DNA of 20,818 bases from the IMG/VR virus record IMGVR_UViG_3300009423_000044, positions 1 through 20,818 of that record. One strand, 5' to 3'. Both the position numbers and the translations under genes were made by a program. Within the stretch, counting starts at the first letter, position 1. Each line of letters starts with the position of its first letter. This document shows, one piece after another, positions 591 through 17,666 of the stretch. The stretch is from a virus. The notes under the pieces were generated by a model that saw only the letters and a program-made list of their open reading frames with translations, made no database searches and had not been told where the DNA came from.

Positions 591-612
591 CTTTCTTAAC
601 TTGTGAGGTAAT

Positions 613-1308: not shown

Positions 1309-1622
1309 TGGTTAGATACAGTAACAAAAAATCAGCTTATGGAATTTGTGACATAACTGGCTTTAGATATAATCTAGTCGATATGAAAAAAACTTGGAAT
1401 GGTTTGATGGTTGGAGCAGATCAATTTGATCCCAAGCATCCACAGCTTAGTCCTAGATTAGCACCAGTAGAAGAAAGAGCATTACCAGATGCAAGAGTAG
1501 ATACTTCAGATGATAATAACTTTTTTGTGGTATATACTAATGTTGGATTAGGTAAGCTAGGTAAACAATTAACTACTTTTGAATCTACATTCAGTGTAGG
1601 AGAGGTTTCGATAACAACATGA
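1308..1622 (+). CDS. Conserved small phage protein next to adaptor genes
   Basis: The product has 104 residues and no membrane segment or signal peptide. Its N-terminus (SNKKSAYGICDITGFRY, then a Trp-containing WNGLMVGADQFDPKHPQ stretch) has the look of a small protein often found among head-tail genes of tailed phages, but I know no assigned function. The Cys is single, so a zinc site is unlikely. The start overlaps the stop of the upstream connector gene (TAATG), and its own stop overlaps the start of the adaptor gene by four bases (ATGA). It is therefore locked into a translationally coupled trio. A virion accessory role is inferred from position only. Confidence 0.6.
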   Translation: MVRYSNKKSAYGICDITGFRYNLVDMKKTWNGLMVGADQFDPKHPQLSPRLAPVEERALPDARVDTSDDNNFFVVYTNVGLGKLGKQLTTFESTFSVGEVSITT

Positions 1623-2266: not shown

Positions 2267-2288
2267 AATAAATAGATAGGACATAAAA

Positions 2289-3008: not shown

Positions 3009-3292
3009 GTGATGGCTTCATACAACTAGGACAAGTAATGGTTTCAACCACAGAGAATCGTGGACATACACCAGAATTTTGGGCAGAGCAAATTACTAAA
3101 AAAATATGTTCTATTAGTGATAATGCGCCTGATCATATTAGACAACAAGCACATGCTTTTCAAAATAATGTTTATACTGTAGTATTGAATGGTGTCAAAA
3201 GTGCAATTGACAGCGACCGGGTGACAATCAGAGGTCTTCTCGATTCGCAAGGGCACAAAGACATGGCAGATATTATTAAACAATTAAAATAG
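3005..3292 (+). CDS. Small conserved phage protein, function unknown
   Basis: This is a 95-residue soluble protein with an N-terminal GFIQLGQVMVSTTENRG stretch, then TPEFWAEQITKKIC, and otherwise helical sequence. It has no membrane segment, no Cys cluster and no recognised catalytic motif. I recognise the N-terminus as recurring in marine phage virion clusters, without a function. Its ATG overlaps the stop of the MptE-like gene, and AAAGG directly abuts the start, so it is likely translated by coupling. It may act with the MptE-like protein or be a small assembly factor; position is the only support. Confidence 0.6.
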   Translation: MSDGFIQLGQVMVSTTENRGHTPEFWAEQITKKICSISDNAPDHIRQQAHAFQNNVYTVVLNGVKSAIDSDRVTIRGLLDSQGHKDMADIIKQLK

Positions 3293-3302
3293 AGGTATAA
3301 AC

Positions 3303-3728
3303 ATGGCTATTACGAGTGCGATAGCAAATTCATTCAAGCAAGAGGTTCTTGTGGAGGCCCATAATCTTACCAATGGCGCAGACAGTATTAAGTTAGCTCT
3401 TTTTACAAGTAGCGCAACAATGGGAGCTGGCACAACTGCTTATGGAACAGGTCAAGAATCATCAGGAACCAATTACAATGCTGGTGGTAATGCTTTAACT
3501 AATGTTACACCAGCTCTTTCTGGTTCTGTAGCAGTAGTTGATTTCGCAGATTTGACTTTTGGTACAGCTACAGTGACAGCTAGAGGTTGTTTGATTTACA
3601 ACTCAACCAACAGTAACAAAGCGATTGCAGCGATTGATTTTGGCGGTGATAAAACGAGTACAGCAGGGGATTTTACAGTAGTGTTCCCCTCCGCCACAGC
3701 TACTGGTGCGATTATCAGATTAGCTTAA
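3303..3728 (+). CDS. Small beta-rich phage structural protein (putative)
   Basis: The 141-residue product contains IKLALFTSSATMGAGTTAY (about residues 25-43) followed by Gly/Asn/Thr-rich sequence and repeated short strands (ALSGSVAVVDFADLTF, TVTARGCLIYN, AIAAIDFGGD). This layout occurs in small phage proteins next to tail genes, where they are usually called structural or hypothetical. There is no catalytic motif. A good GAGGT ribosome site lies seven bases upstream of the ATG, so it has its own translation start, unlike its neighbours. A 33-base gap with a hairpin separates it from the nozzle gene. Virion location is likely; precise role is unknown. Confidence 0.6.
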   Translation: MAITSAIANSFKQEVLVEAHNLTNGADSIKLALFTSSATMGAGTTAYGTGQESSGTNYNAGGNALTNVTPALSGSVAVVDFADLTFGTATVTARGCLIYNSTNSNKAIAAIDFGGDKTSTAGDFTVVFPSATATGAIIRLA

Positions 3729-3734
3729 TTCGTG

Positions 3735-3760
3735 GTAAACTTTTTACTATAGGAGTTTAC
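3735..3760 (+). promoter_or_regulatory. Hairpin overlapping the ribosome binding site of the nozzle gene
   Basis: GTAAACT (3735-3741) and AGTTTAC (3754-3760) form a perfect 7-bp stem with a 12-base loop. The AGGAG ribosome site of the gene at 3762 spans the loop-stem junction (3751-3755), and the stem ends one base before the ATG. Folding would hide part of the site and hinder initiation. The short AT-rich stem means a modest effect. Confidence 0.4.
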
Positions 3761-3761
3761 T

Positions 3762-5642
3762 ATGCCATTAAGTAAAATTGAGTTCAAAGCTGGTATCAAC
3801 AAAGAAGAAACTGACTACGCAAACGAAGGTGGCTGGGTAGATGGTAACTTTGTAAGATTCAGAAAAAATCGTGTTGAAAAAATTGGTGGATGGGTAAAAA
3901 GCACATCCAATACAATTACTGGCTTGCCCAGAGCTTTACATGCTTGGATATCACTAGCTGGTACAAGGCTTTTGGGTGTTGGATCTACTGTTAAGTATTA
4001 CATAGAAACTGGTGGTTCATTCAACGATGTAACTCCTGTTCGCGCAACCACCACAAATGGTATTACCTTTGCAGCAGTTGATGGCAGTTCAACTATTACT
4101 GCTACAGATTCATCTCATGGTGCTATAAAGGGAGATTATGTAACACTATCAGGAGCTGCAACGCTTGGTGGTAACATAACTGCCGATGTTTTAAATCAAG
4201 AATATCAAATTGATTCTGTTCCAAGCACAAATACTTATACATTTACAGCTACAGCGACAGCTAACGCAAGTGACTCAGGCAATGGCGGTGCTGGTGTAGA
4301 TGGCGCATATCAAATCAATGTAGGATCTGACTTTTATGTCCAAGGCACTGGATGGGGTATCAATGCATGGGGTTTCTTTACCTTTGGATCTGTTTCTGCA
4401 TTAAGTTTTACCAACCAGCTCAGGCTTTGGACACACGACAACTTTGGAGAGGATCTTGTAATAAACCCTAGAGGTGGTGGTATTTTCTATTGGGAAGAAG
4501 ATAATGGGTTATCAACCAGAGCAGTAAATATAACTTCGTTGTCAGGCGCAAATAAAGCTCCAACTGCTGGGTTACAAACCTTAATATCAGAAACAGACAG
4601 GCATGTTATTGTTTTGGGCGCAGATCCACTATCTGGTGGCTCAAGAACTGGAGCAATCGATCCCATGTTGATAGCTTTTAGCGATCAAGAATCTGCTACA
4701 GAATGGGAAGCATTGAGCACAAACACAGCTGGATCTCTGAGATTATCAAGTGGTTCTGCAATTATAGGTGGTTTAAAAGCAAGACAAGAGATACTTATTT
4801 GGACTGATTTAAGTATTTACTCTATGCAATTTATAGGACCACCACTTACATTCGCAGTGAACTTGATAAACGAAGGTGCTGGATTGATAGGACCAAAAGC
4901 TGCTGTGAATACACCAAATGGTGTTTACTTCATGTCAAAGAATGGATTTTATTACTACAATGGCGCAGTTAAAAAACTTGCATCATCTGTACAAGATTAT
5001 GTTTTTTCTGATATTGATCTAGAACAAGCATTCAAATGCCATGTTGGTCACAACGCAAAATTTGCAGAAATTTGGTTTTTTTACCCATCAATAATTGACG
5101 ATACTAGAGAAATATCCAGATACGCAATCTACAATTATGAAGAAGGTTTATGGTCGATAGGGAGTATAATTAGGTATGCTTGGATCGATTCAGGTGTTAG
5201 AAACTTCCCACAAGCAGTTGGTATAAATAGCTCATCATCGTATTTACTATACAACCATGAGAGTGGTTTTAATGATGATGATAGTCCGATGGATAATGTG
5301 TTTGTTGAATCTGGTGATTTTGATATAAGCGATGGCGATAGATTAGCTTTCATAAAAAGGATTTTACCAGATGTTAAATTTATAAATGACACAGGTTCGT
5401 CACCAGATGGTGCTGTAAACATAGTATTGAAAAAAAGAGATACTAATGGCAACACACTGTCTATCGACAGTACAAGCCAAGTAAAATCTACAACTGAACA
5501 AAGTTTTGTTAGAGCAAGAGGTAGGCAGTTTGCATTTAGAGTTGAATCTGATGATGACAATAACCTAAGTGATAGAAAAGATTTTAAATGGAGACTTGGA
5601 TCAACAAGATTCGATATACAGCCTTCTGGTAGGAGAGCATGA
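3762..5642 (+). CDS. Tail nozzle / tail tubular protein B-like hub
   Basis: This 626-residue protein starts with KIEFKAGINKEETDYANEGGW and VRFRKNRVEKIGGW, the opening seen in podovirus nozzle proteins (functional equivalents of T7 gp12 and P22 gp10). The body carries repeated propeller-like strands (LRLWTHDNFGEDLVINPRGG, SDQESATEWE, EILIWTDLSIYSM, GVYFMSKNGFYYYNG, RYAIYNYEEGLWSIG). Residues about 95-186 form an inserted beta domain with GDYVTLSGAATLGG and LNQEYQIDSV, resembling the FCCH-type insert found in some phage proteins. The nozzle forms the distal tail and gates DNA exit. TAGGAG upstream is a strong ribosome site, partly in a hairpin. The gene overlaps the next by four bases. Size and order after the adaptor fit well. 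Confidence 0.78.
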   Translation: MPLSKIEFKAGINKEETDYANEGGWVDGNFVRFRKNRVEKIGGWVKSTSNTITGLPRALHAWISLAGTRLLGVGSTVKYYIETGGSFNDVTPVRATTTNGITFAAVDGSSTITATDSSHGAIKGDYVTLSGAATLGGNITADVLNQEYQIDSVPSTNTYTFTATATANASDSGNGGAGVDGAYQINVGSDFYVQGTGWGINAWGFFTFGSVSALSFTNQLRLWTHDNFGEDLVINPRGGGIFYWEEDNGLSTRAVNITSLSGANKAPTAGLQTLISETDRHVIVLGADPLSGGSRTGAIDPMLIAFSDQESATEWEALSTNTAGSLRLSSGSAIIGGLKARQEILIWTDLSIYSMQFIGPPLTFAVNLINEGAGLIGPKAAVNTPNGVYFMSKNGFYYYNGAVKKLASSVQDYVFSDIDLEQAFKCHVGHNAKFAEIWFFYPSIIDDTREISRYAIYNYEEGLWSIGSIIRYAWIDSGVRNFPQAVGINSSSSYLLYNHESGFNDDDSPMDNVFVESGDFDISDGDRLAFIKRILPDVKFINDTGSSPDGAVNIVLKKRDTNGNTLSIDSTSQVKSTTEQSFVRARGRQFAFRVESDDDNNLSDRKDFKWRLGSTRFDIQPSGRRA

Positions 5643-5950
5643 GTAAACTTTTACAAACCAACTTGCCCTTGGCTCAAGGTGTAGAGATTACACCTGAACT
5701 GTTTAATCGTTTGGTAAGAATTTTAGAAATAAACCTTAGCGCAATAGATCCAGAAAAAACACCTAGTTTCAACGCTACAGAGATTTCTGAATTGCAATTT
5801 GCGACAGGTGCTATAATATATAATACAACAGATAGAATACATCAGGCTTTTGATGGAACAAGGATGAGAAGTCTTTATGTTCAACAAACTCATCCATCAG
5901 GTCTAGGTGTCACCACAGCAATAGGGAGCGTTACAGTAACGATTACTTAA
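5639..5950 (+). CDS. Small conserved phage protein after the nozzle
   Basis: The 103-residue protein has an N-terminal helical half (EITPELFNRLVRILEINLSA) and a C-terminal beta half ending in Thr/Val alternation (TTAIGSVTVTIT). FATGAIIYNTTDRIHQAFDG resembles the short strand pattern seen at the ends of tail-attached proteins. It starts on the last bases of the nozzle gene (ATGA), and AGGAG (about 5631-5635) lies a few bases upstream, so both coupling and direct initiation are possible. No function is recognised. A small tail-associated or chaperone role is inferred from position only. Confidence 0.58.
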   Translation: MSKLLQTNLPLAQGVEITPELFNRLVRILEINLSAIDPEKTPSFNATEISELQFATGAIIYNTTDRIHQAFDGTRMRSLYVQQTHPSGLGVTTAIGSVTVTIT

Positions 5951-5951
5951 T

Positions 5952-7979
5952 ATGGCAATAAGCGAAGAATTACAAAGAAGAATAGCTGGGTTCACAGGAA
6001 TGAATGTTGATCCAATGACAGGCTCTATTTCAAACCAAGAAATGTCTGATTTCAATCAAATGTCTGCAACTAATGCCATGGACATGGTTGAAAAAAATCT
6101 GCCATTTTATGGATCTCAGAAGATGGTAGATCCTAGAGATTTAGCCAAACCACAGCCTTTTATGTCATCTGGAGAGCCATTTACAGAGGATATGTTACAA
6201 AAATTAGGTGTTGGACAAACCAAAGGTGCTATTTCTGATGCTGAGATGCAAGTGCTGGAACAAGCACAGGTAGAAGCTGGTGAGACATTTACACCTGAAG
6301 AAAAAGAAATGGCTTTGCAAAAAATTAGAGAGTTATCACAAAAAAGCGAAGCACCTTTATTTGAACAAGCAGAACAATTAAGAATGGAAGGTGAAGGTGA
6401 CGATACTGAAATAGGTCACTTAAAACCCGGTGAAGTTATAATAGATCCTCAGATGTTAGAAGATCCACAATTCGAACAAGTGTTGCAAAGAAAATTCGAT
6501 GAGTTTGGAGTTCCTATAGAAGTAGCAACTGTTGGTGGATTGAACTCTATTAACCCAGTTACAGGTGTTGCTCAATTTGGTTTTCTCAAGAAAGTAGGTA
6601 AATTTTTAAAGAAAGTTGTAGCACCAATAGCTAAGGTTGCACAGTTTGTGCCCGGTCCTTGGATGGCTCCAGCAGCTATTATAGCTAAAGCAGACACAGT
6701 AAGAAATGTAGTTAGAGGGGATGCAAATCCACTTTCTCTATTGACTGTGGCTGGACCTTTAGCTGTAGGTGGTAAATTAACTGATAACATAGCTGGCATT
6801 AAAGCTGCTGGTGATGGCAGTTTTCTTAAAGGATTAGGAAGTTTAGGTGGTAAAACAGTTAGCAGTATTGGTAATGCTGTTATGAATCCTATCGATGCTA
6901 TTAGAGGCATACCTAGTCTATTAAGTGGCGCAAACATGACAGGCAATAATCCTAATTTTCCTACAGATTTTGCAAGCACACCAGCAGATGCCATGATGGA
7001 TTATCAAAAAGCATTAAAATTAGATCCTTCATTAGCTAACAATCCCATGGCTACACTGACAGGTGGAATGACACCAGATCAAATTGCTAACATGGGTGTT
7101 CCAAACATGGGTGTTCCGAACCCATCAAATGTAATGGATTACGATCAAATGATTGCTAAGATGGCTGGAGGCATGTCAGGACAACCACAAACAGAAACAG
7201 AGCAAGGTACACAGCAAGGCACACAAACAGGTAAGCAACCAACAATGATGGATAGATTATCAGGTGCTATATCAGGAACTAGCGGTGGCTTGGGTAACTT
7301 GGGCGATTTAGCTAGGATAGGTGTTACTGGTGGTTTGGCTGGAGCATTAGCTAAATTAGCTTATGATGAAACTAACAAAGATACAGGTGTACCACTTACA
7401 CCTTTAACACAAATGGATGCTACAGGAAGATACAACATAGAAGCAGAAGTAGCCAGAAGGATGGGACAACAAGCTCCTAATCCAGTTGAATTTGGTTTAT
7501 TACCAGCAAACACATTCCCACAATTAAGTGGTGGACAGCCAATGCAAGCCAGATATGGTGGTGAAGTAATGGGTTTTGCAGATGGCGGTTCGTCTTACCC
7601 AAACAAAGGCTTAGAAGCATTAGCTCAGGTAGCACCTCAAGTTGTTGATCGTATGGGTTACAATCATGGTGGCATGGTAATGCCAATGGCATACGCTGAA
7701 GGTGGCAATGTCGCTATGGAAGATTTTAACAGAATGAATGGCGGTATCAATGGTCAAGGCACAGAAACCAGTGATGATATACCAGCCATGCTTTCTGATG
7801 GTGAATTTGTTATGACAGGTCAGGCTGTAAGAGGTGCTGGCAAGTATGAGATGCAAGCTGGCGAAGGTGGTATTATGACATTGATACCATCTTTAGAAGA
7901 AGATAGAGAGCGTGGTACTAATTTAATGTATAGTATGATGGATGCATTTGCTGGACAAGCAGTGCCATCACAAGGATAA
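5952..7979 (+). CDS. Internal virion / DNA-ejection protein (putative)
   Basis: The 675-residue protein has a polar helical N-terminus with GQTKGAIS at 88-95. A GHLKPGEVIIDP motif follows (about 155-166), then a hydrophobic and basic stretch (FLKKVGKFLKKVVAPIAKV and GPWMAPAAIIAKA, about 208-246). The middle is low-complexity Gly/Met/Gln. The C-terminal part has repeated GGEVMGFADGG/GGMVMPMAYAEGG units and DDIPAMLSDGEFVM (608-621). These GE-V-hydrophobic motifs recur in injected or tape-measure-like phage proteins. Proteins of this size following the nozzle in podoviruses are stored in the capsid and form a conduit through the cell envelope. The start follows the previous stop by one base with no clear ribosome site. 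Role is inferred from motifs and order. Confidence 0.62.
   Translation: MAISEELQRRIAGFTGMNVDPMTGSISNQEMSDFNQMSATNAMDMVEKNLPFYGSQKMVDPRDLAKPQPFMSSGEPFTEDMLQKLGVGQTKGAISDAEMQVLEQAQVEAGETFTPEEKEMALQKIRELSQKSEAPLFEQAEQLRMEGEGDDTEIGHLKPGEVIIDPQMLEDPQFEQVLQRKFDEFGVPIEVATVGGLNSINPVTGVAQFGFLKKVGKFLKKVVAPIAKVAQFVPGPWMAPAAIIAKADTVRNVVRGDANPLSLLTVAGPLAVGGKLTDNIAGIKAAGDGSFLKGLGSLGGKTVSSIGNAVMNPIDAIRGIPSLLSGANMTGNNPNFPTDFASTPADAMMDYQKALKLDPSLANNPMATLTGGMTPDQIANMGVPNMGVPNPSNVMDYDQMIAKMAGGMSGQPQTETEQGTQQGTQTGKQPTMMDRLSGAISGTSGGLGNLGDLARIGVTGGLAGALAKLAYDETNKDTGVPLTPLTQMDATGRYNIEAEVARRMGQQAPNPVEFGLLPANTFPQLSGGQPMQARYGGEVMGFADGGSSYPNKGLEALAQVAPQVVDRMGYNHGGMVMPMAYAEGGNVAMEDFNRMNGGINGQGTETSDDIPAMLSDGEFVMTGQAVRGAGKYEMQAGEGGIMTLIPSLEEDRERGTNLMYSMMDAFAGQAVPSQG
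7089..7118 (+). repeat. Two tandem 15-bp copies inside the first internal virion gene
   Basis: Bases 7089-7103 and 7104-7118 differ only in the last base and encode NMGVP twice. They lie in the low-complexity middle of the protein and look like a recent in-frame duplication. Confidence 0.85.
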
Positions 7980-7982
7980 GTT

Positions 7983-9737
7983 ATGGCAATAGATCCTGTT
8001 ACTGGGTATCAAATAGCTAAAAAATTACCTATTGTGGGGGAACCAATAGGGAATCTTGTTGGTGGTTTAACTAATCTCATGAAAAGTGGTGTCGAAAAAA
8101 TGCCTTTTGGAGAAGAAATTATTGATCTATTGCCCGGTGATAAGAAAAGAGAATATCTCTCTATTATAAAAAATTACACAGGAGATCCTGACAGTGCTTT
8201 ACAAATGTTAGAGCAAGCTAGGATGAATGGCTCAATTGATAGTGATACTTATAAACAAGCTACTGTGTTGTTAAAAATAAAAAAACAAAACAATAATGAT
8301 ATGCCATCACAGGGCAGACAAAATATAGATACAGCTAAAAAAAGTTTAGAAATGGCTATGGAATCTGCATTGAATCAAGGTAATATAAATCAATACAGTG
8401 AACTTTCAGAAGAATATAAAAAATATTCAGGTCTAAATACAGGATTAAATATGATTCCTAAATTCGATATGGGTGGTGATGTTAGCGGTTACGATGGGAT
8501 GGACACATTTTTTAGACCAAATTCTCGATATAAGCAAATGGGTGAATATAATATGTTGATGCCAGCTGGAACGCCACCTCAAATGGCAACTGTAAATCAA
8601 CCACAGATGCCAGCTGGAACACCAATTCAAAGTGCGATGGCAAACTTTAATCAGCAGTTACCACAAAGGGTAGCTCCATACAATCCTATGAATACTGGTG
8701 CTGGACAAGCACCACCAGCTGGATTTACACAGCCTACAGTTACTACACCTGTTGCACAAGCTCCTTCACCTGTTGCACAAGCTCCTTCACCTGTTGGAGC
8801 AACTTACACTGGTGCTGGTACAGCTCCAATGCCTTATGCATCAGGGATTACAAGTATTGCAACAGGATTAGATCCAACAACAAAACAAATGTTATTTGGT
8901 TTAGATGGACAAGGTGGTTTCATACCGGGTGCAATGCAAGCAGCTGAGAGTACATTTTTCAATCCAGATGGTACACCAAGAGTTGTCGATCAAACTGTTG
9001 CTGGATTAACTGATGATCAAAAACAAGCTATGGAAATGGCTAGATCTAATGTAGGTGCGCTAGATCCATATATAGGTGAAGCTAGTGGGTTATTTAGAGA
9101 CACCACTGGCGGTTTTGATAGAAGTCAAATAGATAAATTTAACGATCCATTTGAAGATAAAGTAGTCCAACAAGCTATTGAAGATATGAGAAAGTATGGA
9201 GCACAAGAAGATATATCTGATACAGCCAGTGCAATAAGATCAGGTGGTCTTTCTGCTTTTGGCGAAAGAGCTGGTAAGTTTGCTGGCGAAAAAGCAGCTG
9301 GTCGTGAAAGAGGTATGTTAGAAGCAATAGCTGGCATCAGATCTGGCGGTTTTGATAGAGCTAGAACTTTAGCCATGACAGAACAAGCGAGAATGAACGA
9401 AGCTAAAAGACAAGCTGCCTCTGGATTGTTAGGTATAGGTGGTATAGAACAAAGAGGCGGTGCTTTTGATATCAATCAATTGTTAGGCTCTGGTGGATTA
9501 CAGCAGACACAATCACAAGCTCAAGCAGATGCAATAAGAGCTAATGCAATGGCGAGACAACAAGCTCCATTAGCACAGTATCAAGCACTTGCGCCATTTA
9601 TAAGCATGGCTCCAGCTGGTACATATCAAACACAAACACAATATGCACCAAAACCAAGTCCATTACAGGCTGGTTTAGGAACTGGACTAAGCGCATTTGG
9701 CGCAATAGGCAATCTTCTAAATCCAAAGACAACATAA
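7983..9737 (+). CDS. Internal virion protein with Pro/Gln-rich linker (putative)
   Basis: The 584-residue product has a helical N-terminal third (EEIIDLLPGDKKREYLSIIK, SALQMLEQARMNGS). A long Pro, Gln, Ala and Met linker with short repeats covers about residues 185-285. The C-terminal half is Ala/Gly/Arg-rich and helical, with FNDPFEDKVVQQAIEDMRK and SGGLSAFGERAGKFAGEKAAG. The DP-F/Y...V...I segment followed by AFGxRA and long Ala/Arg helices is a pattern I know from phage internal or tail-associated proteins. It lies between two similar large genes, which supports membership in the ejected protein set. AAGGA precedes the ATG by about six bases. The stop overlaps the next start (TAATG). Exact function in ejection is unknown. 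Confidence 0.6.
   Translation: MAIDPVTGYQIAKKLPIVGEPIGNLVGGLTNLMKSGVEKMPFGEEIIDLLPGDKKREYLSIIKNYTGDPDSALQMLEQARMNGSIDSDTYKQATVLLKIKKQNNNDMPSQGRQNIDTAKKSLEMAMESALNQGNINQYSELSEEYKKYSGLNTGLNMIPKFDMGGDVSGYDGMDTFFRPNSRYKQMGEYNMLMPAGTPPQMATVNQPQMPAGTPIQSAMANFNQQLPQRVAPYNPMNTGAGQAPPAGFTQPTVTTPVAQAPSPVAQAPSPVGATYTGAGTAPMPYASGITSIATGLDPTTKQMLFGLDGQGGFIPGAMQAAESTFFNPDGTPRVVDQTVAGLTDDQKQAMEMARSNVGALDPYIGEASGLFRDTTGGFDRSQIDKFNDPFEDKVVQQAIEDMRKYGAQEDISDTASAIRSGGLSAFGERAGKFAGEKAAGRERGMLEAIAGIRSGGFDRARTLAMTEQARMNEAKRQAASGLLGIGGIEQRGGAFDINQLLGSGGLQQTQSQAQADAIRANAMARQQAPLAQYQALAPFISMAPAGTYQTQTQYAPKPSPLQAGLGTGLSAFGAIGNLLNPKTT
8747..8797 (+). repeat. In-frame 21-bp tandem repeat, about 2.4 copies
   Basis: Two identical 21-base units (8747-8767 and 8768-8788) and a partial third encode PVAQAPS repeats in the Pro-rich linker. 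Another dispersed identical 15-base pair (8558-8572 and 8606-8620, encoding MPAGT) lies just upstream. The linker seems to grow by small duplications. Confidence 0.88.
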
Positions 9738-11320
9738 TGGCTATCAGTAGATCACAAATTCCTTCCTTGATCGATCCATTTGCTACAGGTGGTGATGTAA
9801 CATCTCCAAGTACAATGCGTTACTCGCCAAAACTAGAAGAAGAAATTAAAATGTTGTTGCAGAAAAAAATTGCTGACGAACAAGCAAATAATCCTGAATT
9901 TCAACTTGGGAAAAGTTTAGCAGAAGCTAAAGATTACGATGCAAACAAACAAAAATATTATGAAAGATTGAATGCAGTTGCACCAGTTGCAAGAGATAGC
10001 AGAAATATTTATGATTTAGCTTCTGATTTAGGAGCTGGTTTATTATCCACACCAAATACAGGTGGTGCATCAGCGTTTACAGGACTAGGTGTTGGCTTTA
10101 ATAAATATTCAGAAAGAATAAGACAAGAAGATGCTATTAATAGTAAACAAAAACAACAAGTAGCAATGCAAGCAGCTCAAATGGCAATGCAAGATGAACA
10201 GACAGCTAATAATTATTTGCGTGAATATGGATTTAAACAATTAGCAGCACAGAACAAAGATTTAAAAACCATAGATTTAGAGTGGACTGATCCAGAATCA
10301 GGAGAAGTAAGACAAGGAACTCTACCTTTATCTGGAGCATTTGCACAAACCATTTTGAATAATCCTAATGTATATAATGCCAGACCTATTCCAAGCTCAG
10401 CTTTAGTAAATATTGAAGGTGATAATAACCAAGGTGATGGCATGAAAAAATACATGGAAGGTATGGGAAATAATATGGCAGCACTAGAAGGTGAATGGAA
10501 TACAGCAGCTGATGCTGGAGCAGTTACCATTGACCAAGTAAATTCAGCCTTAGCATCAGCTAATGAATTAACTCAAAACGGAGAAGATATTAGTAAATTT
10601 GGTTTAATGAGTCTTTATACTATGGGTATAAAAAGTTTTTTAACCAGTGTTGGCATGGGTGCATTAGTCAACCAAAAAGATTTAGCTAATCAAGCAAATA
10701 TAAACCAGATTGGAGTTGGCTTTGCAATGGGATTAGTAGGTCAAACAAAAGGTGCTATTTCTAACAAAGAGATGGATTTATTTTTGAAAGCTACTCCAAA
10801 TTTAGGTCAAACATATGAATCTTTTTTGAAAATGACAGGCTATTTAAAAAAAATAGCACAAAGAAATCAACAGTTAAACATTTCTTGGAAAGAAAAAAGA
10901 ACTGAATTATTATCTCAAGAAGGTATATCAGTAGCTAAAATAGATGCTGAAATGGCATCACACAAAGCACAATTTTTAGAAGAAAATCCATTGTTTGAAG
11001 GTGGCGATGGGGGTTATCGTGACGATAAAAGTTTAGCTTGGAACAAAGAAAATATGGATAAAAATAGTGAAGCCTATAAATTTCTTATAGATAATGTTGA
11101 TGAAGATAGTATTAAGACTTACAACACTGTATCTGGTAGGCACACAAAAATACAAACAAGCGCAAGGGTAGAACAATTAAGAAAATTAACCCCATCTGCT
11201 GTAGGATTAGAAGATAAGTTTGGAATACCAGATGGTGCAACATTTGAATATGAAGATGCTAATGGAATAAAGTATTATCGTGATGCACAAGGTCAATTGT
11301 ATAACACTACACCAGTATAA
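9737..11320 (+). CDS. Internal virion protein, helical, with QTKGAIS motif (putative)
   Basis: This 527-residue, mostly helical, charged protein has a low-complexity Gln/Ala coiled stretch at about 130-160 (KQKQQVAMQAAQMAMQ). A central helical domain ends in GQTKGAISNKEMDLF (335-349). A Lys/Glu-rich coiled region and a C-terminal beta segment (ATFEYEDANGIKYYRDAQGQ) follow, the last being typical of a small terminal SH3-like or hairpin domain. The QTKGAIS motif is shared with the protein encoded at 5952. No catalytic residues are recognised. The start overlaps the previous stop (TAATG) with no separate ribosome site. Its position between two other large virion genes suggests a stacked ejection assembly. 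Confidence 0.6.
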   Translation: MAISRSQIPSLIDPFATGGDVTSPSTMRYSPKLEEEIKMLLQKKIADEQANNPEFQLGKSLAEAKDYDANKQKYYERLNAVAPVARDSRNIYDLASDLGAGLLSTPNTGGASAFTGLGVGFNKYSERIRQEDAINSKQKQQVAMQAAQMAMQDEQTANNYLREYGFKQLAAQNKDLKTIDLEWTDPESGEVRQGTLPLSGAFAQTILNNPNVYNARPIPSSALVNIEGDNNQGDGMKKYMEGMGNNMAALEGEWNTAADAGAVTIDQVNSALASANELTQNGEDISKFGLMSLYTMGIKSFLTSVGMGALVNQKDLANQANINQIGVGFAMGLVGQTKGAISNKEMDLFLKATPNLGQTYESFLKMTGYLKKIAQRNQQLNISWKEKRTELLSQEGISVAKIDAEMASHKAQFLEENPLFEGGDGGYRDDKSLAWNKENMDKNSEAYKFLIDNVDEDSIKTYNTVSGRHTKIQTSARVEQLRKLTPSAVGLEDKFGIPDGATFEYEDANGIKYYRDAQGQLYNTTPV

Positions 11321-11325
11321 ATTTT

Positions 11326-13863
11326 ATGGCTAAACTTACTCAACAAGAAACAGAAGATTATGAATCAATGTTGGCTACCAGAGGTGAATTAACTGGCGAG
11401 CAAAGTGGTTTGGGTGATGCTATTCTTTCTGGATTGACCAATAGCGAAACCGCTAAAACAAGATGGTTGGCAAATAAAAGATTTCCAAATTATGCAGCTG
11501 AAGGAAAAGATCCTGTTGATTTGCATTATTATGTTGATGGTGATGGTGATATTGCTTTTATAGATCCTACAACAAACAAACCTAGAAAAGAATTTAGAGA
11601 ACTATCAAAAAAAAATAAAGATGGTGGGTACGATTTTTTTAGCTTACGAGGATTAGATACTGGAGATATTGGTGGTAATGTTTTCCCACTATTACAATTT
11701 GTTAGTGAAGTAGTACCAAGCACAATAGCTTTTACTGCTGGTTCTGCATCACCCGGTGGCATACCAGCTGGGATGGGGGCTGCTGCTGCAGCTAACTATG
11801 TTAGTGGTTCATTGATGTATGGTGTCAGAGATGGGATCAGTCAATTAGTAGATGGTCCAGTTCTTGATACAGAACAAGCAATTAATGATTTAAATGTGGG
11901 TTCTATTTTTTCTTTAGCACCTTTGGGTGGTGGCAAAAAAATTGCGCAAGGAAATAATTTTTTAAAAGATATAAGCACTAAATTTGGTGGAAAAGATGGC
12001 AAGAAACAATTACATGACATTTTAACATTAGGTGGAGAAAGTGTTGATAAAAAAATAGCTTATGCAAAAGAAAAGTATGGTATAACTTTGACTAGACCAG
12101 AAGCTATGAATATGCAAACTAACTCAGCAGCTCTACAGCATTATTTGCAAATGCAACCAAGATCACAAAAGTTATGGGATTTTTACCATGAAAGAAATAG
12201 TCAACTAGAAGAATATACAGAGTTATTTTTTCAAGAAGTAAGAAATTCAAAACTTGCAAGACCTTCTATTCAAGAAGCTGTTGAAGCTGGTGGTAAAACA
12301 TCTTTTGGTGACATTGATAAATCAATAGCAGAAATATCAGAAAGAGTTTTAAAACAAATTGCAGAAAAAAGGAAAGCCAGAGCTGGAGAAATTTTTGAGG
12401 CTTCCTATGAACAATTTAGATTAGAAGGAAATAGCATAGATGTTACAGACATATTGACAAATATTGAAAAACAATTAAGCGATAAAAATGTTAAAGGTGG
12501 TTTTAGGTCAGCACTTGAAAAAGTAAAAAAAGGTTTAATAAATCAAAATACTGGCGAACCAATGACTGATTTAAAGATGTTGCATGATAGTTTAAGAATG
12601 GATTTTGGACCTTTACTTGAATCTTTAACTAAGGGTGGTGTTGACACCTCAGCTTCAAAAATTATTAAACGAGATATTTCAAAAATTAGAGATGCTGTTA
12701 GCAAAAAATTAAAAGCTAGTAGTCCAGAGTTTGCTAGAGCTAATGAAATATTTGATCCCACAAAAGGACATTTACAATTATTTGAACATGGTTTAATTAA
12801 TACTCTTGCACAAACAGTAAAAAAAGGTGGTGCTGGAGCTGAAAGAACAATAAAGAGAATGTTTACAGGTGAAACTATACCAGTAAAAGATATAAAAACA
12901 TTAAGGAGAGCTTTACAAACTGATCCTGATGGCAGACTTGCTTGGCAAAATTTAAAAAGTGCTTATTTACAAAGAAATTTTAATGAATCTATTGTTCAAA
13001 CAACCAACCCATTAGGAGTAGCTAATAAATTTTTAAGCAGACTTGGTTTCAAAGGTGATATAAAACGAGCCTTTCCACAAAGTAACCCAATGCTTAGAAC
13101 TCAAGCTGGATTAGATGAAGCGGCTCAAACTAAGGTTGCTTATGATGCAGTTAGCCAAAGAGCTAAAATATTAAAAGAAATATTAGAGCCAGAAGAATTA
13201 GCTAACTTTGTTGATTTATCAGACATGATGCAGACTATTTATCAAATTGCTCGTAAGTCTGGATCACCTACTGAAAGTTTTCAAAACATGGGTAAAATAT
13301 TAGCAAATGAAAGTATTACAGGTGGTCGAAAATACGCTAGATATGCATTAAGTATGCTAAATACAATACCTAGAATAATTAATAAAGGTTTTAGCGATGT
13401 ATCAGAAAACATTCTAGCAACTCAAAAAGAACTTTATGAAGATACATTAATTGATGCTCTAATAGATCCAAAAAAAGCATTAGAGTTAAGTGAGTATCTA
13501 AACGCTGTAAAACCATTTACATATTTAATGTCACAAACTTTTTTAAGATCAGGAGATGCTGGCTTAGAAGCATTAGCAAATTCTACTGAAGGTGGTATAG
13601 ATGAAAGAAATGCAGACATAAAAGACGAAATTGATGCGTTCAAAGGAAAACAGATTGAAGAAGAATATAGGCAACAACAAGAAAATAAAAGTATAAACAA
13701 TCAAATAGACAGCGTTAATCCAGATACAACATCATCTCTAATGAATGTACCAGCATTCCCAACACAACCTGACATAAACACAGCTATGTCACCTACTGTA
13801 TTGCCTAACCCACAGGATCGTGAGTTAGCAATGAGAAGATCAGGACTCGCTGGTTTGGTCTAA
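11326..13863 (+). CDS. Largest internal virion protein of the cluster (putative)
   Basis: The 845-residue protein is the last gene of the rightward virion block. The N-terminus contains VDLHYYVDGDGDIAFIDPTTNK (about 65-86). A hydrophobic Gly/Ala-rich segment follows (about 128-180: FPLLQFVSEVVPSTIAF, GGIPAGMGAAAAANYVSG) that could insert in a membrane. A long charged helical region runs to about 760, with a polar tail at the end. No lysozyme or transglycosylase motif was found. One large, partly hydrophobic last protein in a podovirus ejection set is usual (T7 gp16 is the functional parallel, not a claimed homologue). No ribosome site is visible before the ATG. The 3' end overlaps the convergent gene at 13840 by 24 bases without a visible terminator. 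Confidence 0.6.
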   Translation: MAKLTQQETEDYESMLATRGELTGEQSGLGDAILSGLTNSETAKTRWLANKRFPNYAAEGKDPVDLHYYVDGDGDIAFIDPTTNKPRKEFRELSKKNKDGGYDFFSLRGLDTGDIGGNVFPLLQFVSEVVPSTIAFTAGSASPGGIPAGMGAAAAANYVSGSLMYGVRDGISQLVDGPVLDTEQAINDLNVGSIFSLAPLGGGKKIAQGNNFLKDISTKFGGKDGKKQLHDILTLGGESVDKKIAYAKEKYGITLTRPEAMNMQTNSAALQHYLQMQPRSQKLWDFYHERNSQLEEYTELFFQEVRNSKLARPSIQEAVEAGGKTSFGDIDKSIAEISERVLKQIAEKRKARAGEIFEASYEQFRLEGNSIDVTDILTNIEKQLSDKNVKGGFRSALEKVKKGLINQNTGEPMTDLKMLHDSLRMDFGPLLESLTKGGVDTSASKIIKRDISKIRDAVSKKLKASSPEFARANEIFDPTKGHLQLFEHGLINTLAQTVKKGGAGAERTIKRMFTGETIPVKDIKTLRRALQTDPDGRLAWQNLKSAYLQRNFNESIVQTTNPLGVANKFLSRLGFKGDIKRAFPQSNPMLRTQAGLDEAAQTKVAYDAVSQRAKILKEILEPEELANFVDLSDMMQTIYQIARKSGSPTESFQNMGKILANESITGGRKYARYALSMLNTIPRIINKGFSDVSENILATQKELYEDTLIDALIDPKKALELSEYLNAVKPFTYLMSQTFLRSGDAGLEALANSTEGGIDERNADIKDEIDAFKGKQIEEEYRQQQENKSINNQIDSVNPDTTSSLMNVPAFPTQPDINTAMSPTVLPNPQDRELAMRRSGLAGLV

Positions 13864-14082
13864 GTTATCAGCTTCAATCAAAGCACCATTCACTTCAAAA
13901 TTCATTTCATATCCCATAGCACTCTCACCATTTATGGTGACTACTAAGTTTCTTGATATCAAACGAAGTAATGCAGTTTGATGATGTAAGTTGAGCTTAC
14001 CAAACAAATCTACTACTTCACTAGGGTGAGCGATCTCATAAGAAACAGGTGTTTGTTTCTTGACTTCTTTTTTATTAAACAT
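13840..14082 (-). CDS. Unknown small protein, second gene of the leftward pair
   Basis: The 80-residue protein has a Lys-rich start, a helical middle (HPSEVVDLFGKLNLHHQTALLRLISRNLVVTI) and an acidic C-terminus. It has no membrane segment or known motif. It begins two bases after the stop of the ribbon-helix-helix gene and probably shares its transcript. Its 3' end overlaps the 3' end of the rightward virion gene by 24 bases. The regulator-plus-small-partner order resembles some antitoxin or co-repressor pairs, but nothing in the sequence identifies it as a toxin. Coding status is supported by tight spacing and lack of another gene in the interval. Confidence 0.55.
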   Translation of the reverse strand: MFNKKEVKKQTPVSYEIAHPSEVVDLFGKLNLHHQTALLRLISRNLVVTINGESAMGYEMNFEVNGALIEADNLDQTSES

Positions 14083-14084
14083 AT

Positions 14085-14276
14085 TTATCCAGTAGCTATT
14101 TTTTTATCTGAAGCAGTTAACTCATTGTGCTTAACTTCAATCATCAATCTAAGTTGATCAACTTTTGATCTACGCTCCATAGAACAAATCTCTTGCAATA
14201 GATTATATGTATCTAAATCAACAGCAAGACTTTTTCTACCTTTCGGATATTGTTTTTGTCTTATAACTTCTTCCAT
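14085..14276 (-). CDS. Ribbon-helix-helix (Arc/MetJ-like) DNA-binding protein
   Basis: The 63-residue protein has the compact RHH layout. A basic lead (RQKQYPKGRK) is followed by a strand KSLAVDL (15-21), helix A (DTYNLLQEICSMER, 22-35), a short turn (RS) and helix B (KVDQLRLMIEVKHNEL, 38-53). Such proteins dimerise and insert the paired strand in the major groove of palindromic operators. The gene faces the seven-gene rightward operon across 231 bases of AT-rich control DNA that holds a 14-bp palindrome on a promoter. It is therefore the natural candidate regulator of that operon and of itself. AGG about ten bases before the ATG is a modest ribosome site. Fold assignment is by pattern and length. 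Confidence 0.65.
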   Translation of the reverse strand: MEEVIRQKQYPKGRKSLAVDLDTYNLLQEICSMERRSKVDQLRLMIEVKHNELTASDKKIATG

Positions 14277-14311
14277 AACATAGCCTATTTTTTTTATATA
14301 AGTTTGCGCAT

Positions 14312-14340
14312 ATTTTATAAAAATTTCGACACATTTGCAA
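14312..14340 (-). promoter_or_regulatory. Possible sigma70-type promoter for the leftward pair
   Basis: Read on the minus strand, TTGCAA (14340-14335) and TAAAAT (14317-14312) are separated by 17 bases, about 35 bases before the RHH start codon. Matches to consensus are four and five of six. The AT-rich context makes chance hits likely, hence low confidence. Confidence 0.35.
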
Positions 14341-14353
14341 CTATAAACACAAG

Positions 14354-14365
14354 ATTATGCATAAT
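14354..14365. promoter_or_regulatory. 12-bp perfect palindrome in the divergent control region
   Basis: ATTATGCATAAT reads the same on both strands and lies 14 bases upstream of the putative leftward -35 box. It could be an autoregulatory operator, but its sequence differs from the palindrome at 14448, and AT-rich DNA produces such matches by chance. Confidence 0.3.
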
Positions 14366-14436
14366 ATATTAAAAATACTATATAAAACAATAACTTATAA
14401 AAATGTATAAATATTGATATATTAATGTACTAATAG

Positions 14437-14465
14437 TTGTACTTCTTTACAAAATTTTGTACAAT
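14437..14465 (+). promoter_or_regulatory. Sigma70-type promoter of the small-gene operon
   Basis: TTGTAC (14437-14442) and TACAAT (14460-14465) are spaced by exactly 17 bases. The predicted start, near 14472, gives a leader of about 36 bases carrying AAGGAG before the first small gene. TTGTAC and GTACAA are also inverted copies of each other. An extra inverted repeat (TATTA...TAATA, 14420-14435) lies immediately upstream of the -35 box. This is the best promoter in the interval, and the operon orientation supports it. Confidence 0.6.
14448..14461. promoter_or_regulatory. 14-bp palindromic operator candidate within the promoter
   Basis: TACAAAATTTTGTA is a perfect palindrome covering the spacer and the first bases of the -10 box. 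A protein bound here would block RNA polymerase. The divergently encoded RHH protein is the obvious candidate. Binding is not shown. Confidence 0.45.
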
Positions 14466-14507
14466 AGTTATGTGGAAAGTATATTTAAAAACAAAAAGGA
14501 GCAAAAA

Positions 14508-14612
14508 ATGAAATACAAAGCTGAGATTCAAGCGTTTGTAAATTTCTTCAAACTTGTAATCCTACCCCAGTTGGTAGCTTTTTCAGTAATCGCAATAAGT
14601 GAGGTATCGTAA
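14508..14612 (+). CDS. 34-residue single-pass membrane peptide
   Basis: The frame reads MKYKAEIQAFVNFFKLVILP and continues to SEVS before TAA 14610-14612. Residues about 10-30 are hydrophobic (Phe, Leu, Val, Ile) with a central Pro, fitting one membrane helix, with a basic N-terminus. It has the strongest ribosome site in the region (AAAAAGGAG, six bases before the ATG), is the first gene behind the promoter, and its stop overlaps the next start (TAATG). These features make it a real gene despite its length. Short phage membrane peptides can alter host membrane proteins or block superinfection, but no function is recognisable here. Confidence 0.68.
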   Translation: MKYKAEIQAFVNFFKLVILPQLVAFSVIAISEVS

Positions 14613-14797
14613 TGGAAATTAAATACTGTGATATATGTAATGGTCCTATCGAAATAGAAAGAGACTTTAATGGCAAACCATTTTGGAATGGTGGACATAA
14701 TGCTCAACCAATTGTGGATGGTAGATGTTGTGATGGTTGTCACATGGCAGTGTTGGCTGAGAGAATGAATAGAGCAATTAATAGAGAGGCATCGTAA
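14612..14797 (+). CDS. Small Cys-rich, probably zinc-binding protein
   Basis: The 61-residue protein has CDIC (Cys6, Cys9) and RCCDGCH (Cys39, Cys40, Cys43, His44) flanking a conserved-looking WNGGHNAQPI stretch. Two CxxC-type pairs about 30 residues apart form a typical zinc-ribbon arrangement. Proteins with CDIC...GHNA.P...GRCC...C recur in marine phages as unknowns. It may bind nucleic acid or a host protein; neither is shown. It is coupled to genes on both sides through TAATG overlaps. A short helical basic tail (ERMNRAINREAS) closes the protein. Confidence 0.72.
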   Translation: MEIKYCDICNGPIEIERDFNGKPFWNGGHNAQPIVDGRCCDGCHMAVLAERMNRAINREAS

Positions 14798-15051
14798 TGA
14801 TTGTATATCATGTAGATGAAGGTAGTAATACTAATGAATGCCCTAGAAGATATGTGGCAACACTAAAAGAAGCTAGAATGTTACAAAAGAAATATCTTAT
14901 GAAGCACTTTTTAGAATATGGCGATCTTGAAACTGCTGATACTTTTTATGTAACGATTGAAAAAGTAAAAATAGATACAAGCAAAGAAACAATATTAAGA
15001 ATGTTAAATTATGAAGGTGGGTATGAAATCTCATCTGAGGAGATAGCGTAA
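14797..15051 (+). CDS. Unknown small operon protein (84 aa)
   Basis: The sequence begins MIVYHVDEGSNTNECPRRYV, followed by a helix (LKEARMLQKKYLMKHFLEY) and a strand (TFYVTIEKVKI). This strand-helix-strand order would suit a small alpha/beta fold. There is one Cys and no catalytic motif. The ATG overlaps the stop of the zinc protein, and its stop overlaps the next ATG (both TAATG), so it is part of a coupled chain. No family is recognised. It shares size and overall order with the next gene (strand, helix, strand), so an ancient duplication is possible but not evident at residue level. Confidence 0.6.
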   Translation: MIVYHVDEGSNTNECPRRYVATLKEARMLQKKYLMKHFLEYGDLETADTFYVTIEKVKIDTSKETILRMLNYEGGYEISSEEIA

Positions 15052-15338
15052 TGCCTAAAAGAAAAATTAGAGTTTATATTGTAAGTGATGGAGTTGATAA
15101 GCAAGCATTTCTTGAAATGGATCAAGCACAAGTTTTCCTTCAAAAACTAGAGAACAAAGAATTTGTCGGATATCGACCTCAGATAGAGACTAGAGTTTGC
15201 AGAAATAAGAGACAAGTCGATTCTGTTTTAGAATATTACAATCGAAATTATATTGATGATATGTACCATGAACAAAAAGCCATCAACGATGATATGAATT
15301 GGGATGAAGGTGATGGCTGGAATAATACTGTCAATTGA
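15051..15338 (+). CDS. Unknown small operon protein (95 aa), acidic C-terminus
   Basis: It opens with a basic PKRKIRVYIVSDGVDKQAF, then a helix (MDQAQVFLQKLENKEF) and a strand (PQIETRVCRNK). The helical C-terminus ends in an acidic Asp/Asn/Trp-rich tail (INDDMNWDEGDGWNNTVN). The charge polarity, basic at the start and acidic at the end, is the only notable trait. The start overlaps the previous stop. The stop lies inside a 14-bp palindrome that precedes the next gene's ribosome site. Function is unknown. Confidence 0.6.
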   Translation: MPKRKIRVYIVSDGVDKQAFLEMDQAQVFLQKLENKEFVGYRPQIETRVCRNKRQVDSVLEYYNRNYIDDMYHEQKAINDDMNWDEGDGWNNTVN

Positions 15339-15341
15339 CAG
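15328..15341. promoter_or_regulatory. 14-bp perfect palindrome between two operon genes
   Basis: CTGTCAATTGACAG is a perfect palindrome containing the TGA stop (15336-15338) of the upstream gene and ending one base before AAAGGAG. It could be a protein site or a small RNA stem limiting read-through. It is unrelated in sequence to the promoter palindrome. Confidence 0.35.
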
Positions 15342-15354
15342 AAAGGAGAAAGTG

Positions 15355-15618
15355 ATGGAAAAAAATGTTTATGAGTCTGCTTTAGACAATTACAACAATG
15401 GATTATTTTTAAAGCTAGAGGGATCATCAGGAAGGTGGTTTGTAAACACATTTTTAGATTCAGGAATCATCAAGACATTAGAGGAAAAAGGTAATGAGGT
15501 TATTGATGGTTATGGTAGAACTACGATTCTAAAAAAAGCCACGATTGACTATGATCGTATTGATGAATTATGGGATATAAATCCAGAGTTTATGGAAGAA
15601 ATAGAAGGAGAAGCATAG
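15355..15618 (+). CDS. Unknown small operon protein (87 aa)
   Basis: The start at 15355 is chosen because AAAGGAG (15342-15348) sits six bases upstream. An in-frame ATG at 15304 would overlap the previous gene by 35 bases and lacks a comparable site. The protein begins MEKNVYESALDNYNNGLFLK, has GRWFVNTFLDSG and an acidic C-terminus (ELWDINPEFMEEIEGEA). It has no Cys and no membrane segment. The TAG stop overlaps the GTG start of the DUF2958 gene (TAGTG). I do not recognise a family. Strong ribosome site and coupling support it as real. Confidence 0.62.
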   Translation: MEKNVYESALDNYNNGLFLKLEGSSGRWFVNTFLDSGIIKTLEEKGNEVIDGYGRTTILKKATIDYDRIDELWDINPEFMEEIEGEA

Positions 15619-15944
15619 TGAAACTAATCACTAAAGAGATAATGGGTAAGCTCAAAAGTAACCCAAGAGATAACGCTGATAATAAACCATGGCTGAAGTT
15701 ATTTAATCCAGCTGGTAGTGGTACTTGGTTAATATCAGAAATCAAGAATGATCATGACACTTTGTTTGGCTTGTGTGATTTAGGTCATGGCTCACCAGAG
15801 TTAGGCTATGTCAGTTTGAAAGAACTGGAGTCACTTAAACTACCATTTGGTTTGAGCATTGAGCGTGATATCTCATTCACTCCAGATAAAACTTTGAGTG
15901 AGTATGCTGATGAAGCCAGATCAAACAGATATATAATCTCATGA
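15618..15944 (+). CDS. DUF2958 family protein
   Basis: The 108-residue protein shows the family's order: WLKLFNPAGSGTWLISE (25-41), TLFGLCDLGHGSPELGYVSL (48-67), ELESLKLPFGLSIERDISF (69-87). The TWxxxE, FGL, ELGYxSLxEL and GLxIERD blocks are diagnostic to my eye. DUF2958 proteins occur on plasmids, mobile elements and phages with no settled function. GTG at 15618 is taken as the start because GGAG (15607-15610) is seven bases upstream and the codon overlaps the previous stop. An in-frame ATG at 15570 would add 16 residues inside the upstream gene. The stop overlaps the next ATG. Confidence 0.78.
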   Translation: MKLITKEIMGKLKSNPRDNADNKPWLKLFNPAGSGTWLISEIKNDHDTLFGLCDLGHGSPELGYVSLKELESLKLPFGLSIERDISFTPDKTLSEYADEARSNRYIIS

Positions 15945-16072
15945 TACAAGAAGAAATTTATCTTCTTGATCTGATAGCCAGAGAAGCATGGATAATTGAC
16001 ATGCAAGAAATGGCATTTGGTCTTAGTTTTTATTTCTTCATAGCTTTATTTATTTACAACAAGATTAAATAA
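15941..16072 (+). CDS. 43-residue single-pass membrane peptide
   Basis: The frame starts MIQEEIYLLDLIAREAWIID and carries a hydrophobic segment at about residues 25-40 (AFGLSFYFFIALFIYN) before a basic KIK end and TAA 16070-16072. An acidic amphipathic N-terminal part, one membrane helix and a short positive tail suggest the N-terminus faces outward if the positive-inside rule holds. It overlaps the DUF2958 stop by four bases (ATGA) and is the last gene before the terminator. It mirrors the membrane peptide that opens the operon. Function is unknown. Confidence 0.6.
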   Translation: MIQEEIYLLDLIAREAWIIDMQEMAFGLSFYFFIALFIYNKIK

Positions 16073-16098
16073 ATTGTAAAATAAACCAGTATAGGTTT

Positions 16099-16163
16099 CC
16101 CCCAGACAACTTGTAGATTGCTCCTTCAATCTTTCCACACCAAGTTGTTCTGGGGTTTTTTTT
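16099..16163 (+). terminator. Branched intrinsic terminator with a CUCCUU loop
   Basis: The outer stem pairs CCCCAGACAACTTG (16100-16113) with CAAGTTGTTCTGGGG (16141-16155), 14 bp with one bulged A, followed by eight T (16156-16163). Inside its 27-base loop is a second perfect hairpin: AGATTG (16115-16120), loop CTCCTT (16121-16126), CAATCT (16127-16132). The outer stem and T-run are a classic rightward terminator. The inner hairpin is unnecessary for termination and displays a perfect anti-Shine-Dalgarno sequence. The structure could therefore also be the 3' part of a regulatory RNA. The reverse strand lacks a T-run, so it is one-directional. Confidence 0.85.
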
Positions 16164-16190
16164 GTCTAAAAAAATGCTATCATAATTTCT

Positions 16191-16901
16191 GTGACAAAAC
16201 ATAACATAAAAAATTATATGCTATCAATGCAATCTCATTGGTGTGTGAATCAAAATACTTATGATAAAGTTCAAGATTCATTGCCGATGATAACCAAGTT
16301 CAATGCCAGTCTTGGCACAGATAAACTTGCAAAAACTCCAGTCAATAAAATAATAAAAAAGATTCACCCTGATATTTACAAAGTTCCTTTATTCAGGAGA
16401 CAGTTTTGCAGAATGCTAGTGGATGAAATTAAAAACATGGATTTCAAAACTAATGATTCAGAAGATACTTTGAGACAAATACCAGAAGTTATATTGCATG
16501 AGAAATTACCAGATCTATACAGGAACATGTGGTACATAGTTCAAACAGTTTTGAATCCTATATTTTTTAGTTTGTGGCAAAGACATTGTGCAAACATTGG
16601 AACTATACAATTAGCAAACTACAATCTCAAAGATAAATCACAGGGTGCGTTTCATCATGATGATTCATCAGATATAACTGTTGTTGTTCCACTTAACACT
16701 GGAGAATATAAAGGTGGTGGTACAGAGTTTCATAACTATGGAAAGATAGATCCATTGCCCACTGGACATGCATTGATGTTTCCATCCTTTCATATGATGC
16801 ATAAAGGTTTACCAGTAGAATCAGGTGATCGATATCTTTTAGTATTCTGGTTGTATGATAGAGCTAGAGTAGAATATCTACATCAAAATGGCTTACCATA
16901 A
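16191..16901 (+). CDS. 2-oxoglutarate/Fe(II)-dependent oxygenase
   Basis: With the GTG at 16191 the product has 236 residues. The iron triad is visible as an HxD within FHHDD (His155/Asp157, or His156/Asp158) and His204 in MHKGLPV. Arg214 in GDRYLLVFW would bind 2-oxoglutarate. GGGTEF (175-180) fits the prolyl-4-hydroxylase-like subgroup. Such enzymes hydroxylate proteins, nucleic acids or small molecules and are common in marine phages; the substrate is not evident. The start is uncertain: neither GTG 16191 nor ATG 16218 has a ribosome site. The gene lies only 27 bases after a strong terminator, so it needs read-through or its own promoter, and no convincing one is seen. Its 3' end overlaps the convergent exonuclease gene by nine bases. 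Confidence 0.8.
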   Translation: MTKHNIKNYMLSMQSHWCVNQNTYDKVQDSLPMITKFNASLGTDKLAKTPVNKIIKKIHPDIYKVPLFRRQFCRMLVDEIKNMDFKTNDSEDTLRQIPEVILHEKLPDLYRNMWYIVQTVLNPIFFSLWQRHCANIGTIQLANYNLKDKSQGAFHHDDSSDITVVVPLNTGEYKGGGTEFHNYGKIDPLPTGHALMFPSFHMMHKGLPVESGDRYLLVFWLYDRARVEYLHQNGLP

Positions 16902-17666
16902 TTGATCTAAATCAATAGTTTGCACACCTGATATATTGTATGGCTCATAAATACCATTTTCTTTTGCTGTAAGGATTTTACTCAGTGCTTGTTCATTTTT
17001 AGATTGACCATACATCAATGCTTCAGGTGTAAGATCATAAACAGCATATGGGTATGGATGTATTTTTTCTTGTGCTAGGAATGAAAAGCCATCAGCTGGC
17101 AACCCAACTGCTCTACAAGCATCGACATACAAAGATGCTTGCATATGATATCTAAAGCCATTGATAGCACTTTTAAATCCTCTTGGTGAACCATCACGAC
17201 AGGTTTTTAGATCCCAAGGTCTGACTCCATCATACCAATCCAATCTGGATTTGAATGGATGTCCATTCCACATAAAGCAAATTGTCAGCTCGACTTTGTG
17301 TTCTGGCTTGGGTATGAACTCACTCACTACTTCTCTGCGCTCCATACAATTGTCATACATGGTTTGTGTGATGGCAGTGCGATTACCTATACTATTTTCA
17401 AAATCCTCGAACTCTTGCTTACCTAGTTTAGTTCTACGATCAAATTTAGGCGAGATTACAAACTCTTTATCAAAGTTATGTAGCTCAAGAAATACAGTGT
17501 GCTGTACTCTGCCTTCGAGTAATGCTGGTGATTCACTAAAGCCTTTTTTGTGCTTCCATGTAAACATACAGCGGTCAGCTTCTTTTAAATCAGAAGCACG
17601 ATAAGCTGGTATCTCATTGTATTCCTCGAAAGGTAAATCTTCGTAAACACCTTCTTTAAAGTCCAT
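16893..17666 (-). CDS. RecE/YqaJ-like PD-(D/E)XK exonuclease
   Basis: The 257-residue protein carries the RecB-type nuclease motifs in order: GRVQH (His56), VELTICF (Glu126), SRLDWYDG (Asp143), WDLKT (Asp152, Lys154) and QASLY (Gln176, Tyr180). Exonucleases of this group resect double-stranded ends to start phage recombination. The start at 17666 (MDFKEG) is preferred over in-frame ATGs up to 17702 because GAGG lies six bases upstream and the family normally begins with a short G-x-Y-x-xx-xxEY segment. It overlaps the end of the DUF3310 gene by 11 bases, so the two are coupled. No annealing protein gene is seen beside it, but the ssDNA-binding protein is in the same cluster. Confidence 0.82.
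   Translation of the reverse strand: MDFKEGVYEDLPFEEYNEIPAYRASDLKEADRCMFTWKHKKGFSESPALLEGRVQHTVFLELHNFDKEFVISPKFDRRTKLGKQEFEDFENSIGNRTAITQTMYDNCMERREVVSEFIPKPEHKVELTICFMWNGHPFKSRLDWYDGVRPWDLKTCRDGSPRGFKSAINGFRYHMQASLYVDACRAVGLPADGFSFLAQEKIHPYPYAVYDLTPEALMYGQSKNEQALSKILTAKENGIYEPYNISGVQTIDLDQLW

Follow-up and report, generated by a model that had tools for sequence, protein, structure and literature searches.

The transcript of an operon of seven small genes in an uncultured marine phage genome probably ends in a 3'-UTR small RNA, predicted to repress operons with a common leader by pairing with both their ribosome site and their mRNA 5' end. The probability of this reading is put at roughly 60%.

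Genome context

The window, which is the whole stretch analysed (20,818 nucleotides), corresponds to a 20.8-kb virus record. Besides the operon, it carries virion genes at 307-13863, minus-strand genes, and a gene for a 2OG-Fe(II) oxygenase at 16191-16901. The closest cultured phages are the Pelagibacter phages HTVC023P and HTVC027P, phage 023Pt_psg01, and DSL-LC04. Their capsid and terminase are about 57–63% identical to those of a relative (L159), and one virion protein of the window is about 33–39% identical to their counterpart. The oxygenase gene has an apparent GTG start immediately 3' of a -10-like TATCAT, without a ribosome site (16170-16195); its mRNA may be leaderless, and relatives show a similar layout. 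Within the first small gene, a terminator-like hairpin, CTACCCCAGTTGGTAG, is followed by CTTTTT (14562-14577), and a similar sequence is present in L140. Contigs bearing the terminator element belong to clades A (the window, L001, L002), A' (L003-L006), and B (L007-L012). The operon, its leader, and the element consist of the following features.

14437-14465, plus strand: sigma70-like promoter of the operon, TTGTAC-17-TACAAT, read from the sequence
14471-14479, plus strand: leader site 1, TGTGGAAAG, exact complement of 16131-16139, predicted mRNA 5' end
14496-14504, plus strand: leader site 2, AAGGAGCAA, exact complement of 16118-16126 and ribosome site for the first gene of the operon
14508-16072, plus strand: the seven small genes that form the operon; gene six (15618-15944) encodes a DUF2958 protein
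16053-16082, plus strand: TTTACA-18-TAAAAT, a weak candidate for a promoter from which the small RNA might itself be transcribed, such matches being no commoner than chance
16083-16098, plus strand: 5' hairpin AAACC-AGTATA-GGTTT, which folds in clades A and A'
16100-16163, plus strand: intrinsic terminator, with a 14-bp outer stem (16100-16113 / 16141-16155) and T8 at 16156-16163
16115-16132, plus strand: inner hairpin AGATTG-CTCCTT-CAATCT from fold prediction, with CTCCTT as its loop
16118-16126, plus strand: pairing part 2, TTGCTCCTT, complementary to the ribosome site
16131-16139, plus strand: pairing part 1, CTTTCCACA, the strand 3' of the inner hairpin, complementary to the predicted mRNA 5' end

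Fold of the element and its predicted pairing with the leader

The sequence and coordinates originally given for a terminator that presents CTCCTT in an inner hairpin are correct, and the fold was confirmed (minimum free energy of -23.8, z -3.9, with 0 of 200 shuffles as good). Melting of the inner hairpin costs 4.1 kcal/mol. The element has the G+C-rich stem followed by a T run of an intrinsic terminator. The stem interior does not vary freely as it would in such a terminator: CCACA and the loop core are kept, and the other inner bases change along with the leader. At the place of the possible small-RNA promoter, relatives carry the -10-like TGTAAAATA, TGTACAATA, or TGTATACTA.

Because leader site 1 begins 6 bases 3' of the promoter-like TTGTAC-17-TACAAT, the operon mRNA probably starts right at this site. 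Leaders of relatives have the same layout upstream, consisting of TTGTACTT and a -10-like hexamer directly before TATGTGG. TGTGG is kept in all leaders found, across three operons.

As first predicted, the loop strand is an exact 9-nt complement of the ribosome site. This 9-mer has no further occurrence in the window, and two or more copies are found in 8 of 100 shuffled windows; since AAGGAG is moreover a usual ribosome site, the match taken singly is only mildly unusual and constitutes weak evidence. AAGGAG is also found at 15343-15348 and 15605-15610. Its reported absence from the virion genes holds for the 13 gene starts that were checked, three of which have AGGAG. The second exact 9-nt complement, that of part 1 with leader site 1, was absent from the original prediction. 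Taken singly, it is equalled in 99 of 5000 dinucleotide shuffles, and is thus only moderately unusual by that measure; among mononucleotide shuffles, 5 of 5000 equal it. The part-1 9-mer has three matches in the window, a number reached by none of 100 shuffled windows. A third copy of TGTGGAAAG lies on the minus strand at 13071-13079, inside a virion gene.

The two matches are antiparallel in order and form one bipartite duplex (9+9 bp) with an asymmetric internal loop, at -23.1 kcal/mol. When the interaction was compared with shuffled controls, as had been proposed, none of 5000 dinucleotide shuffles of either partner was as good; the two matches combined are far beyond chance. Among 21 start regions ranked in the window, that of the first operon gene came out best at -23.0, the next being at -16.2. 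Co-folding with crossing pairs forbidden brought little gain, since contacts made within the outer stem have a pseudoknot-like arrangement. Duplex energy is no proof by itself, as a site within a virion gene (2091-2131 in the gene at 1619-2266) is predicted to pair with the terminator RNA at -28.5, more strongly than the leader. With the A' RNA, the site at the same place in this gene is strong in L162 and L167, and weak in L174. This pairing is possibly a matter of chance in a G-rich coding stretch.

Conservation in relatives

All nine relatives whose contigs cover the complete operon together with its leader (L001, L003-L009, L011) keep the element. The original prediction was to be abandoned if relatives kept the outer stem and lost the loop, a loss that was not observed: CCACA is kept in every relative, together with TCCTT or its like in all. 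These two segments are fixed while adjacent bases change. Two pairs of the outer stem are altered on both sides in clade B, and one pair of the inner stem changes from G-C to C-G in A'. Clade B has a shifted, weaker inner hairpin, absent from the minimum-energy fold in L007, and carries another hairpin, ACTAC-CTTA-GTAGT, in place of the 5' hairpin. A covariance model matched the element in those members that were searched; more distant loci gave no match. A further stem-loop is found 5' of the element in L006 (2405-2440) and L009 (7828-7862), with a changed stem (TATAGC/GCTATC in A', TGCGAC/GTCGCA in B) and an A-rich loop; it is absent from the window, where a 43-aa ORF stands.

Part 1 of leader and element reads TGTGGAAAG/CTTTCCACA in the window, TGTGGAAAC/GTTTCCACA in A', and TGTGGAT/ATCCACA in B. 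In a shorter comparison, the pairs are GTGGAAAG/CTTTCCAC, GTGGAAAC/GTTTCCAC, and GTGGAT/ATCCAC, respectively. Ribosome site and loop are AAGGAG/CTCCTT in A and A' versus AAGGAA/TTCCTT in B. Three positions are altered on both sides, in a comparison of three lineages with few and related sequences, hence few events. Pairing is broken at part-1 positions 8 and 9 in clade B, at positions 6-9 in L011/L050 (leader GTGGTAAC), at position 7 with the helicase leader of L164, and, in L003, at the final base of the ribosome-site match. A strict claim of covariation across the three clades was dropped, given the misfit of L011/L050 and L164 at some positions. Predicted binding of clade A RNAs to the leaders of clade B is weak (-9.5 to -12.5). 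With six pairs, same-contig combinations outperformed swapped ones, 8 of 720 permutations being as good or better; this advantage is suggestive only, because the pairs are related by descent.

The part-1 complementarity could be the by-product of one protein-binding motif, TGTGGAWA, placed in two orientations at promoter and terminator, for instance as a DnaA box. Against the DnaA consensus, which we take to be TTWTNCACA, TTTCCACA and CTATCCACA fit at 8 of 9 positions. This explanation is very improbable: in none of the leaders found does the final base (G or C) agree with the consensus, and neither the ribosome-site match nor the place of the element in a conserved RNA hairpin is accounted for.

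The leader on other operons

In relatives, the same leader stands before an SNF2-helicase operon, 3' of the capsid gene. L164 belongs to the window's own phage species, with proteins 99–100% identical over genes 307-7983. Its helicase leader, TGTGGATAG...AAGGAGCAA, has the full 9-nt loop match and one part-1 mismatch, for -19.8. In L006, a third operon with the same leader lies immediately 3' of the element and ends in a plain terminator. No element of their own was found for the helicase operon or the third operon of L006, which points to an action of the element in trans.

Leader and element are also the two ends of one transcript, and their pairing would serve equally to close the mRNA into a loop, with translation or stability altered in cis and no free small RNA. 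That the leader occurs on the helicase operon and the L006 third operon makes this cis action unlikely.

It is about as improbable that the element is an ordinary terminator with a C/T-rich loop, in which case the leader would be kept for its promoter and ribosome site, and the matches would have no function. A match to CTCCTT is cheap, AAGGAG being a common ribosome site, and the plain terminator of the L006 third operon would also fit chance. So would another type of phage in which two operons (L059 7966-8001, G001 817-844) share a different leader, GGGAAATTTAATT..AAAAAGGAG, for which a pattern scan found no partner RNA, only the leader's own complement. However, chance does not readily give two 9-nt matches to a single leader at a level that no shuffle attained, nor CCACA and a loop core that stay constant amid changing neighbours, nor three co-changes. 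In a more distant phage (L069 6207-6245), the leader is TGTGGATAGTAAATTT..AAAAGGACG; the L069 and L070 contigs end before the operon end.

Beyond close relatives, reading, folding scans, and the covariance model yielded no element among distant relatives of the oxygenase (L024-L048) or of the DUF2958 protein (L052-L119). A pattern scan for the outer stem retrieved, besides the known elements, only unrelated terminators. Cultured-phage DNA gave no match to 14000-17000, and only chance-level matches to the element. Neither leader nor element is present in the stretches examined of HTVC023P, HTVC027P, 023Pt_psg01, and 5 kb of DSL-LC04. Bacterial genomes yielded no relative of either the oxygenase or the helicase.

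Proposed function

The idea from which the analysis started, that the terminator RNA can bind the ribosome site of its own operon, gains support at the sequence level from the second pairing region, the three co-changes, and the presence of the leader on other operons. In the proposed mechanism, the 3'-terminal part of the transcript (about 16083-16163) would become a regulatory RNA, either by processing or from its own promoter. The loop TTGCTCCTT would bind the ribosome site, and the strand CTTTCCACA the mRNA 5' end. Predicted targets are mRNAs beginning with TGTGG-(A-rich)-AAGGAG, that is, those of this operon and of the SNF2-helicase operon. The ribosome site would be covered by the duplex, and translation repressed. 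From the place of the element at the operon end follows a possible feedback role, in which repression would grow with transcription of the operon. We infer the separate RNA molecule, its processing, its action in trans, and its repressive effect from these sequence features.

Repression is the simplest predicted outcome, since the ribosome site lies within one half of the duplex. Activation by unfolding is unlikely, as the RNA would itself sit on the ribosome site it had opened. Since part 1 pairs with what is predicted to be the very 5' end of the mRNA, the RNA might instead protect that end, so that the operons are activated or stabilised; this is highly improbable, as the other half of the duplex should block translation.

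A broader proposal extends the repressor reading to a regulon defined by a 5' tag. At least two operons (that of the small genes and that of the SNF2 helicase, with a third in L006) start with one leader, and the terminator of one of them would be a small RNA that reads the tag twice and silences all, as a feedback timer in marine phages. This is advanced tentatively, at somewhat less than even odds. Should such control be real, the terminator would have a second role, regulating operons of its own phage in trans. Its two-part target code would be directly legible in the sequence, simple to test with a reporter, and open to searches in other phages.

Comparison with known systems

To our knowledge, uncultured environmental phages have so far provided few small RNAs, and no papers on pelagiphage small RNAs were found in the open-access literature searched. 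RNAIII and other anti-Shine-Dalgarno RNAs present a C/U-rich loop complementary to ribosome sites. The element has such a loop; unlike these RNAs, it is encoded by a phage and also matches the mRNA 5' end specifically, with a second segment. In Rfam, 15940-16200 showed no sequence relation to them.

The sar RNA of P22 and the OOP RNA of lambda are small phage antisense RNAs acting on phage mRNAs (PMC12197685). They are cis-encoded with long complementarity, whereas the element is complementary, over two short stretches, to leaders located at other places in the genome. The C4 antisense RNA of P1 and P7 binds around a ribosome site (PMC12197685). Like C4, the element would be a phage RNA with loops predicted to base-pair, around the ribosome site, with an mRNA of the same phage. 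The genes controlled differ, the target of C4 being an antirepressor gene in the same transcript, and C4 is located upstream in the transcript that it controls. No match to C4 or another Rfam family was found at the gathering score over the window, or at E up to 10 for 15940-16200.

In Vibrio cholerae, the 3'-UTR small RNAs OppZ and CarZ repress their own operon (PMC7398697; also PMC9438474). The element likewise stands at an operon 3' end, terminates in the intrinsic terminator of the operon, and is predicted to pair with and repress a translation start of its own transcript; the likeness is one of position and predicted pairing, OppZ and CarZ being defined by a short RNA made by RNase E and by Hfq dependence. 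Unlike them, it is phage-encoded, carries its pairing strand and loop inside the terminator stem, and matches two sites (5' end and ribosome site), and other operons share its target. The original view that no phage RNA of such a form had been described needs softening, as C4 binds around a ribosome site and bacterial 3'-UTR RNAs repress their own operon. The element is predicted by analogy to work like OppZ and CarZ or like C4, without sequence relation to C4.
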